Shown: positions 19,864 to 56,086 of the stretch, one piece after another
How positions within the stretch are numbered: the stretch's first letter is position 1
Layout: every line of letters begins with the position of its first letter
NCBI GenBank assembly: GCA_000818095.1
Contig: CP009416.1
Coordinates: 1,596,501-1,660,500, forward strand
Source: Jeotgalibacillus malaysiensis
Lineage (GTDB): Bacteria; Bacillota; Bacilli; Bacillales; Jeotgalibacillaceae
DNA: 64,000 nucleotides
Reading direction: 5' to 3'
Made by a program: the position numbers and the translations under genes
The notes under the pieces: model-generated
The model's database searches: none
Told to the model about the DNA's origin: nothing
The model's input: the letters and a program-made list of their open reading frames with translations, nothing else

Positions 19864-20148
19864 ATGAGAATGAGTGAGCTGTATAGAAAAGAAATGATTG
19901 ATATTGATCAGGCAGAAAAGATGGGCATCCTCGGAAATGCTGATATCGAATTCAACGATGAAACAAGTGAAATCATTCATATTCTCGTTCCGACAGGGAA
20001 AATCAGTCCATTCAAAAGTAATAGAGCTGAATATGCAATTCCCTGGAAATCAGTGCATGCAGTAGGAAAGGAACTTATTCTTATTCATGGCAAGCGGTCA
20101 CCACTTGAGTCTCCATTACATACTATACCGGAGAATAAAGAAGAATGA
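19864..20148 (+). CDS. ymxH: YlmC/YmxH-family PRC-barrel sporulation protein
   Basis: The protein is 94 residues with the family opening MRMSELYRKEMIDIDQAEKMGILGNADIEF and a PRC-barrel-like pattern (YAIPWKSVHAVGKELILI). The family is widespread in spore formers, but its biochemical role is unclear. The ATG at 19864 follows GGAGGG (19853-19858) with 5-nt spacing; an ATG at 19870 is an alternative. It starts the block leading into dpaA. Confidence 0.88.
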   Translation: MRMSELYRKEMIDIDQAEKMGILGNADIEFNDETSEIIHILVPTGKISPFKSNRAEYAIPWKSVHAVGKELILIHGKRSPLESPLHTIPENKEE

Positions 20149-20164
20149 AGTGAGTGAATGCTGT

Positions 20165-21046
20165 GTGAAAAAGGAACTGACAAATAAAAAGACAGCTGTA
20201 ATTGGAGGAGACGCAAGACAGCTTGTCATTGCTGATGCTTTATGTAAGAAGGGAGCAGAGGTTTTTCTTTGCGGGTTTGATCAATTAAATCTTTCTGAAC
20301 CCGGTTACAGGAAAACCCATGTAGACCTGCTTCCATTTGAAGCACTTGATGCAATCATCTTCCCGGGAAGCGTAATAGGAGCTGGCGGTTATATTAAATC
20401 ATCTTTTAGTGCAGGGAGCTTATTCATCAGTGAACACCAGTTACTAACGCTGCCGGAAACCTGTTTATTATTTACTGGTATAAAGACGGCCTGGTCAGAG
20501 GAAAGCGCAAAGCAATTTATTTATCTGTTTGAAGAGGATGATATTGCAATTTCTAATTCAATTCCGACTGTTGAAGGAATCTTATTGCTGATTATTCAGC
20601 ATACTGACTTTACCATCCATGGATCCCGTGTCGTTATCACAGGCGGTGGAAGGGTTGGAAAGACGGCAGCAAGAGTACTTCATGCACTTGGCGCTTCAGT
20701 CACTGCGCTGTCATCGGATAAGTCAGAAATTGCCCGGATGATTGAAATGGGTGTAACAGGCGGGGACCTTACGGAGTTAAAAACGCATTTAACAAGGGCT
20801 GATATCTGGATCAATACAATTCCTTCGATCGAATTAATTAATCAGAACACCTTAACAGCCTGTCATCCGACCATATTAATAATAGAGCTCGCATCTAACC
20901 CGTCCGCCGCTCAAAAAGATCATGCGTTGCAAAAAAATATCAGTTATCTGGAAGCGCCAAGTCTTCCTGGATTAGTAGCACCAAAAACTGCAGGTGAAAT
21001 TCTCGCAAAGGCAATTCTTAATCAGATTATTAATAAAGGGGAATGA
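20165..21046 (+). CDS. dpaA: Dipicolinate synthase subunit A
   Basis: Mother-cell enzyme subunit that, with DpaB, converts a diaminopimelate-pathway intermediate to dipicolinic acid for the spore core. The protein is 293 residues. An N-terminal domain with AVIGGDARQLVIADAL is followed by a second Rossmann fold with ITGGGRVGKTAARVLHALGASV near 155 and PGLVAPKTAGEILA at the C-terminus. GTG at 20165 best matches the family start. GTG at 20150 is an alternative; both ribosome sites are weak, so translation may be coupled to ymxH, which ends 16 nt upstream. Confidence 0.93.
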   Translation: MKKELTNKKTAVIGGDARQLVIADALCKKGAEVFLCGFDQLNLSEPGYRKTHVDLLPFEALDAIIFPGSVIGAGGYIKSSFSAGSLFISEHQLLTLPETCLLFTGIKTAWSEESAKQFIYLFEEDDIAISNSIPTVEGILLLIIQHTDFTIHGSRVVITGGGRVGKTAARVLHALGASVTALSSDKSEIARMIEMGVTGGDLTELKTHLTRADIWINTIPSIELINQNTLTACHPTILIIELASNPSAAQKDHALQKNISYLEAPSLPGLVAPKTAGEILAKAILNQIINKGE

Positions 21047-21050
21047 AGAG

Positions 21051-21650
21051 ATGCTAAAAGGAAAGAGAATCGGTTTTGGTTTTACGGGCTCTCATTGCAC
21101 TTATCACCTTGCATTGCCGGAGCTTGAACACCTTAAAAAGCTTGGAGCTGAGATTATGCCAGTCGTGAGCTATACAATGCAGACGACAAACACCAGGTTC
21201 GGTGAAGGGGAGGAGTGGGTTGAAAAAATTGAAAAAGCCGCCGGTAGAAAGTGTATCAGGTCTATAGCAGAAGCTGAGCCCCTTGGACCTGCAGAACCGC
21301 TTGATTGCATGGTTATTGCCCCGTTAACAGGAAATTCACTTGCCAAGCTTGCAAATGCCTTAACAGATTCACCTGTTTTAATGGCAGCTAAAGCAACAAT
21401 GAGAAATCATAAACCGGTCGTCATCGCCATTTCAACAAATGATGGTCTTGGACTGAATGGGATGAACCTGATGAAGCTGATGGGGGCAAAAAATGTTTAT
21501 TTTGTTCCTTTCAGTCAGGATGATCCCGTAAATAAACCGAACTCCCTTGTCGCTCATATGGAGGAAATTCCTCAGACTGTATCTGAAGCATTAATTGGAA
21601 AACAGCACCAGCCTGTCATTACATTAAAGGGTTTGAATAAAAGAGATTGA
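21051..21650 (+). CDS. dpaB: Dipicolinate synthase subunit B (flavoprotein)
   Basis: The protein is 199 residues of the flavoprotein (HFCD) family. Motifs are GKRIGFGFTGSHCTYHLALPEL at the N-terminus and DCMVIAPLTGNSLAKLANALTDSPVLMAAKATMRN. It works with DpaA in dipicolinate synthesis. The ATG at 21051 follows AAAGGGG and starts 4 nt after the dpaA stop. Confidence 0.95.
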   Translation: MLKGKRIGFGFTGSHCTYHLALPELEHLKKLGAEIMPVVSYTMQTTNTRFGEGEEWVEKIEKAAGRKCIRSIAEAEPLGPAEPLDCMVIAPLTGNSLAKLANALTDSPVLMAAKATMRNHKPVVIAISTNDGLGLNGMNLMKLMGAKNVYFVPFSQDDPVNKPNSLVAHMEEIPQTVSEALIGKQHQPVITLKGLNKRD

Positions 21651-46808: not shown

Positions 46809-46907
46809 ACACTGTAATATTGCTTCCTTCTGCATAACTTCACGCTAAATGGAATATAGTGAATGGACACTAGCACATGTTAGCGGTTGAAGAAGGGGGA
46901 TCTGCAG

Positions 46908-47144
46908 TTGAATGTATTAAAAGTATCGTCAAAATCTAATCCAAATTCAGTGGCAGGTGCATTAGCAGGTGTTTTGAGAGAAAAAGGCTTTGTTGAAGTT
47001 CAGGCGATTGGTGCAGGAGCGCTGAATCAGGCGGTCAAAGCGGTCGCCATCTCAAGAGGTTTTGTGGCACAGGCAGGGATTGATCTGATCTGTATTCCAG
47101 CATTTACAGATATTCAGATTGAAGGAAAAAAGAACCGCCATTAA
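46908..47144 (+). CDS. spoVS: Stage V sporulation protein S, frameshifted C-terminus
   Basis: Small Alba-like protein needed for late sporulation; normally one of the most conserved spore proteins, 86 residues in B. subtilis from memory. Here 78 residues read from TTG 46908 (after GGGGGA) to the stop at 47142-47144. The body matches closely (SVAGALAGVLREKGFVEVQAIGAGALNQAVKAVAISRGF; DLICIPAFTDIQIEG). After a run of six As (47126-47131) the frame ends GKKNRH, while another frame continues TAIKLIIEPR to a stop at 47164-47166, which is the normal family end. Two more As would restore exactly 86 residues. See findings. Confidence 0.92.
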   Translation: MNVLKVSSKSNPNSVAGALAGVLREKGFVEVQAIGAGALNQAVKAVAISRGFVAQAGIDLICIPAFTDIQIEGKKNRH

Positions 47145-47170
47145 ATTAATTATTGAACCAAGGTAAGAGT

Positions 47171-47196
47171 AAGCCGCTGCTTTTGCAGCGGCTTTT
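47171..47196 (+). terminator. Terminator after spoVS
   Basis: AAGCCGCTGC (47171-47180) and GCAGCGGCTT (47185-47194) form a perfect 10-bp stem with a TTTT loop and short T tail. It begins 5 nt after the ancestral spoVS stop (47166). Confidence 0.85.
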
Positions 47197-55555: not shown

Positions 55556-56086
55556 ATGACGGAATACCGTGAGATCATTACGAAATCGGTGGTCGCAAAA
55601 GGGCGTAAATATGTGAAAGCTAAACATACTGTTCAGCCGCCGCACAAACCATCGAGCATTCTGGGTTGCTGGATTATCAATCATAAATACGCGGCAAAAA
55701 AATCCGGTCATAAAATTGAAGTGAATGGATCATATGAGCTGAATGTCTGGTATTCACACCATCACAACACTAAAACATCTGTAATGATTGAAAATGTAAA
55801 CTATAGAGATGAGATTAATCTAAGATACCGCGATAAGGACGCAAGGAATGATCACGAAGTCATTGCAAGAGTGCTTCAGCAGCCGAATTGTATAGAGGCT
55901 GAGATTTCAGATAAGGGCCAGCATATTGTTGTTCATGCAGAAAGAGAAATTGCAGCAGAATGTGTTGGAGAAACCAAAGTATGCGTTGCTTTTACGCATG
56001 AACAGCCTTCAGATGATGACTGGGAAGGTTACGATCTTGATGAAGAACTTGAACATATCAATCAAAATGTATTTGATCACGATTAA
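55556..56086 (+). CDS. cotE: Spore outer coat morphogenetic protein CotE
   Basis: Builds the outer spore coat around the forespore in the mother cell. The protein is 176 residues (about 181 in B. subtilis). [24 protein letters not shown] and [19 protein letters not shown] are family hallmarks, and the C-terminus is acidic ([16 protein letters not shown]). The ATG at 55556 follows AAAGGAGG. It precedes mutS-mutL as in B. subtilis. Confidence 0.96.

Follow-up and report, generated by a model that had tools for sequence, protein, structure and literature searches.

The window analyzed here is a 64,000-nucleotide stretch of the genome of the marine bacterium Jeotgalibacillus malaysiensis D5 (genome G000; G000:C1:1596501-1660500), and positions below are counted within it unless a contig is named. 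It carries a shortened gene of the SpoVS family whose conserved C-terminus lies in another frame, together with three intact sporulation genes. The features are as follows:

46890..46899, plus strand: Shine-Dalgarno-like sequence AAGAAGGGGG ahead of the spoVS TTG (direct sequence reading)
46908..47144, plus strand: shortened spoVS frame, 78 aa, with a TTG start at 46908 and the ending EGKKNRH-stop (sequence; Pfam PF04232)
47070..47075, plus strand: codons 55-56, Q-A (comparison with relatives)
47124..47136, plus strand: changed stretch GGAAAAAAGAACC, with six A residues at 47126-47131, 2 bases shorter than in relatives (comparison with relatives)
47134..47166, plus strand: stranded conserved C-terminus TAIKLIIEPR-stop, out of frame (comparison with relatives)
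47171..47194, plus strand: predicted hairpin followed by T-rich sequence, terminator-like, beyond the tail's stop
20087..21650, plus strand: dpaA and dpaB (dipicolinate synthase), frames intact (congener orthologues named by NCBIfam)
55562..56077 (G000:C1:1652062-1652577), plus strand: cotE, frame intact (sequence search)

The product of the shortened frame matches PF04232 at 117.6 bits (cut-off 24) through residues 2-75, which cover model positions 1-74 of 83. Profile search of the whole genome, megaplasmid included, returned this gene as the single SpoVS match, ruling out a second spoVS copy elsewhere in D5. The shortened frame closes with TAA at 47142-47144, and the tail frame opens with ACC at 47134 (ACC GCC ATT ... 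AGG TAA) and ends with its own TAA at 47164-47166; the GKKNRH-stop ending at 47144 and the TAIKLIIEPR-stop in another frame, both reported in the preliminary description, are confirmed. Unbroken sporulation genes inside the window are dpaA, dpaB and cotE.

We compared the 3' end of spoVS across 110 loci, comprising the window's own, 29 from relatives (of 81 genomes searched, 80 had a match, and loci were taken for the top 30) and 80 named loci, retained as the best of 537; two loci duplicate others, giving 108 distinct tail-bearing sequences. Among the matches listed, a tail of the RTAIKLIVEPR type is in frame in 109 of the 110 loci, the window being the sole exception, so the tail downstream of its spoVS is no coincidence. 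The earlier claim of a frame change relative to a conserved 86-aa protein stands. The junction leading into the tail reads GEERTA in 90 of these 109 intact loci, GEDRTA in 9, GQERTA in 5 and GDERTA in 2, with GDKKTA, GEEKTA and DEERTA found once each. SpoVS is intact in all 11 congeners. Residues 1-73 of the window protein fit nearly the whole family model, and its relatives share an 86-aa architecture; the window gene differs in a frame shifted past residue 73, a tail replaced by KKNRH and the loss of P55. Residue 55, Q in the window, is P in 109/109 relatives among the matches listed, and residue 56, A in the window, is S in 91, G in 15 and N in 1 of the 107 listed relatives of 86 aa; A56 recurs in one longer relative, L087. 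The SpoVS proteins of L087 and L088 are 88 and 87 aa long, with one or two additional C-terminal residues.

At the position of GGAAAAAAGAACC, the nearest relatives have a G codon followed by GAAGAAAGAAC, 2 bases longer than the window. No run of six A residues occurs in the last 48 nt of any of the 109 intact relatives among the matches listed, where the longest A run is 5, in one gene. The run in D5 is a product of the lesion and not an ancestral slippery site, because the relatives are without it and the window is 2 bases shorter. This departs from the preliminary description, which placed the break at the A run and named A5 or A8 in reads or sister genomes as the mark of a sequencing error; the relatives have neither, GEERTA-type codons stand in their place, and an ancestral run of either length is rejected. 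The frame shifted through a 2-base shortening of the codons given as GAAGAA by the nearest relatives, and the simplest histories are two 1-base losses, or one 2-base loss plus one base change. In consequence KKNRH and a stop stand in for the 13 C-terminal residues of the conserved protein.

Could the stranded tail still be read? Recoding, either by transcriptional slippage on the A run or by a ribosomal shift, would give a full-length SpoVS, and the six A residues form part of an in-frame A AAA AAG at 47126-47132, where a +1 shift after the AAA at 47127-47129 would yield GKRTAIKLIIEPR. This heptamer is a slippage site of the -1 type, known from dnaX and from cdd of B. subtilis. The window shares it in frame with those sites, but here it is unconserved (the run is missing in 109/109 relatives among the matches listed), and a -1 shift would produce KKEPPLN and miss the tail frame, which requires +1 or -2. 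The predicted hairpin starts past the tail's stop and resembles a terminator. In the window, 5 in-frame heptamers of this kind and 54 runs of six A residues occur across the 44 frames of at least 150 aa. Rescue by slippage, as raised in the preliminary description, could moreover not restore sporulation, because D5 lacks sigF, spoIIIAC-AF and most of spoIIE and has a stop in spoIVA, as described below. We consider recoding scarcely credible.

The remainder of the genome provides the context in which the spoVS lesion can be judged. We carried out a census of conserved genes against two congeners, G008 and G011, over the window, 120 kb around spoIVA and spo0A (region A) and 60 kb that starts ahead of the window and overlaps its first 3.5 kb (region B). 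Frames of G008 that were unconserved in the G011 stretch or lay outside the compared ranges were dropped, retaining 52 of 62 in the window, 109 of 130 in region A and 60 of 65 in region B. In this comparison of one J. malaysiensis genome, with one genome per species and liable to miss lesions that fall within the first 40 residues or leave at least 80% of a frame matched without a stop, 12 of the 221 genes conserved in both congeners are damaged or absent in D5, every one of them a sporulation or germination gene:

spoVS: frameshift, tail out of frame
spoIVA: internal TAG stop at residue 88 of the G008 frame, protein otherwise 97.6% identical
ypeB: mostly deleted
gerA-family gene at the spoVA locus: stop at 300
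spoVAB: mostly deleted
spoVAA, sigF, spoIIAB and spoIIAA: absent
D-Ala-D-Ala carboxypeptidase gene beside spoIIAA (dacF-like): absent, save a weak 29% match to another carboxypeptidase gene
spoIIM: frameshift and stop
spoIVB: frameshift and stop

Names of damaged genes come from NCBIfam and Pfam; the spoVAA match is under its cut-off (21.1 versus 25 bits), SpoIIM falls below the NCBIfam cut-off and above that of Pfam, and the dacF label of the gene adjoining spoIIAA is one we presume from position. D5 has about 3.5 kb less DNA than G008 between the spoVAB remnant and the gene that follows it, and no repeats were found at the sigF deletion in the one 1.5-kb stretch of D5 inspected. Intact sporulation genes in the census set include spo0A, sleB, dpaA, dpaB, cotE and three that we take to be dacB, spmA and spmB. 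The sequence changes in D5 are concentrated in sporulation genes, with a Fisher p of 6e-15 given 8 intact sporulation genes and of 1e-8 assuming 40. The earlier suggestion that the spoVS break is relevant to sporulation is correct. In the reverse control, 16 of 234 genes conserved in D5 and G008 were flagged in G011. Thirteen of these sit where the G011 stretch or contig ends, or past that point; of the remaining three, one has a stop at 370 of 379, one differs in 9 C-terminal residues and one is a doubtful 135-aa frame. Two frame changes near the N-terminus, seen relative to G011 only (G011 66016 and 67264), were set aside as lying, by eye, upstream of likely starts.

Genus-wide searches of ten families in 12 genomes, D5 and its 11 congeners, gave a concordant picture, with five of the ten families damaged in D5 and none in any congener. 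The internal stop in the SpoIVA frame is found in D5 only (0/11 congeners). SigF exceeds its cut-off in 11/11 congeners and not in D5, where only other sigma factors match. SpoIIIAE is present in 11 of the 12 genomes and absent only from D5; 6 of those 11 matches are below the curated cut-off but without stops. SpoVAD is whole in the 11 congeners, and 44 end positions are left in D5. SpoIIE, likewise whole in all 11, retains profile positions 4-47 and 504-763 in D5 as a single 417-aa frame. The D5 spoIIE open frame (G000:C1:82718-83662, locus L204) joins what in the G008 frame are residues 6-102 and residues 529-810, an internal deletion, and the phosphatase end of the protein may still be made. 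At the spoIIIA locus, compared with G008, AC, AD, AE and AF have no match, AB is reduced to 50 residues and AA is frameshifted near its end (AA, AB, AC and AD being named by position). All 12 genomes carry Spo0A, SASP, SpoIID, SpoIIGA and CotE, each free of stops. Altogether, more than a dozen spore genes are broken or missing in D5, including most of spoIIE, spoVAD and spoIIIA. The 11 congeners retain all ten searched families, so that the genus offers a clean comparison for the erosion of sporulation.

These surveys bear directly on whether the spoVS lesion might be an error of sequencing or assembly at this spot, with the organism's gene intact. The D5 assembly was made from PacBio RS II reads with HGAP, and the available portion of its report names no second platform for D5 (PMC5027565). 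A PacBio-only assembly and a perfectly preserved tail are what such an error would look like, and of the 52 window genes that G008 and G011 share, spoVS alone is damaged, a frequency compatible with rare consensus errors. The change, however, is not one homopolymer count: 2 bases are missing, the run is absent from the relatives among the matches listed, and codons 55-56 are altered too. Lesions elsewhere, multi-kilobase deletions among them, fall on sporulation genes, while the other 209 census genes are unflagged. The preliminary description had offered a sequencing or assembly error as one possibility; because D5 has many other lesions on sporulation genes, a read error alone is very unlikely. 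Poor assembly throughout the window was unsupported, the other flags there being by eye N-terminal extensions, antisense frames and, at 35.2 kb, an upstream stretch that is non-coding. Nor was there support for a systematic loss of G from GAAGA contexts, this word occurring 403 times per 100 kb on the plus strand of the window and 366-417 times in four congeners; variation is greater for rarer words (GGAGAAG, 11 in the window versus 16-27 in congeners).

The pattern of substitution in spoVS points to a recent event. The stranded tail has 0 nonsynonymous differences from loci L002-L005 across its 11 codons, which agrees with the earlier reading that a well-preserved downstream frame implies a recent change. 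Synonymous divergence (dS) between D5 and G008 is about 1.29 over 13,797 window-gene codons (ungapped matches of at least 80% identity), and drift over the whole D5 branch, taken as half of dS, would be expected to leave nonsynonymous changes numbering about 15 for the tail and about 105 for the core. Residues 55 and 56 have changed, yet the core shows only 2 nonsynonymous codons (2-3 changes) and the tail none. As a rough estimate, limited by a dS near saturation and by the half-branch assumption, constraint on spoVS would have been lost within about the final 7% of the branch, an upper 95% bound given by the core (the tail gives 20%). A recent loss therefore explains the perfect stranded tail without any rescue.

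We also counted residues unique to D5 against residues unique to G008, with G011 as outgroup:

Broken genes: spoIVA 6:4; gerA-type gene 24:18; spoIIM 14:12; spoIVB 28:11; spoVS 4:1
Intact sporulation genes: sleB 6:11; spo0A 5:3; dacB 28:27; spmA 14:7; spmB 14:7; dpaA 29:23; dpaB 9:9
Other region A genes: 1051:813

The broken genes are without clear excess, which fits a recent loss and is not in itself a test of recency.

A conserved core might alternatively mean that the shortened SpoVS (78 aa, with Q55 and A56) still works in altered form, serving some purpose other than sporulation. Its residues 1-73 are otherwise the same as in the nearest congeners (L002-L004), and a SpoVS-type protein has solved structures (2eh1, 2ek0), which we take to be from Thermus thermophilus, presumably an organism that does not sporulate. 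Against this, the tail is kept in 109/109 relatives among the matches listed, 2eh1 itself has P at 55 and retains EERTALK in the tail, and recent loss accounts for a conserved core without function. We regard a working short protein as highly improbable. With a frame-disrupting change in D5 and intact orthologues in 11/11 sister species, spoVS is very probably a young pseudogene, marking a real and recent loss in a lineage that lost sporulation. Disruption of spoVS1 and spoVS2 leads to defective sporulation in B. thuringiensis, according to the part of PMC8510167 available to us, which contained no residue-level work on the SpoVS tail.

In B. subtilis, sigF, spoIIAA, spoIIAB, spoIIE, spoIIIAE, spoIVA and spoIVB are among the genes essential for sporulation. 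The D5 lineage has lost by deletion the forespore switch (spoIIAA-spoIIAB-sigF and most of spoIIE) along with most of spoIIIA, and stops or frameshifts interrupt spoIVA, spoIVB and spoIIM. Under the B. subtilis model, a cell with these lesions could not form spores, and spoVS would therefore be free of selection. From these gene contents we infer that D5 lost spore formation, relaxing selection on spoVS; the genome suggests, and it appears, that the ability to make spores was lost recently. Evidence against loss is that spo0A, SASP, spoIID, spoIIGA, cotE, sleB, dpaA and dpaB are intact in D5.

Published accounts of the genus can be set beside this reading, each as far as the accessible text goes. 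Jeotgalibacillus is described as an endospore-forming genus (PMC13348283). SpoIIIAC and SpoIIIAE were independently found missing in D5 in a study that still called the strain sporulating and urged experiments (PMC7924749), an anomaly for which a recent loss of sporulation offers an explanation. The same study reported SpoIIM missing in Jeotgalibacillus (PMC7924749), in contrast to the intact SpoIIM-family frame that we find in two congeners. At least 10 sporulation genes were raised at high salt in D5, and endospore production was suggested (PMC5027565); caution is warranted, as raised 'sporulation genes' at high salt need not mean endospore production. Among the titles and opening abstracts listed for Jeotgalibacillus in openly accessible papers, none states that D5 has lost sporulation.

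Another view is that the sporulation programme was selectively dismantled and its remainder repurposed, for example in a high-salt response; the parts staying intact are spo0A, spoIIGA, cotE, dpaAB and the neighboring genes for sigma factors, by position sigE and sigG. A bolder version would have D5 sporulate without SigF, a whole SpoIIE or SpoIVA. We think this view very improbable in either form. Most likely, D5 is a new case of a known kind, recent loss of sporulation. Non-sporogenous firmicutes with such a loss were treated by Onyenwoke et al. 2004, as described in the available text of PMC3533761. Like D5, they have close relatives that keep sporulation genes and they retain many such genes, spo0A included, with some broken or deleted; unlike them, D5 has many lesions rather than few. 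Sporulation genes that are essential in B. subtilis are lost or broken in D5 and kept in 11/11 congeners (spoIVA, sigF, spoIIE, spoVAD and spoIIIAE).

Just outside the census ranges, a gene unrelated to sporulation is also split in D5 by an intron-like insert (G000:C1:1959089-1962908, the end of locus L158 plus L230). Within the insert lie a 300-aa frame at 1961068-1961970 that to the eye looks HNH-like and, on the minus strand at L230:866-1114, a match to the group I intron family (Rfam RF00028) scoring 42.4 bits, short of the gathering score of 50. In G008 the gene encodes 854 aa, and it is presumably ribonucleotide reductase-like.
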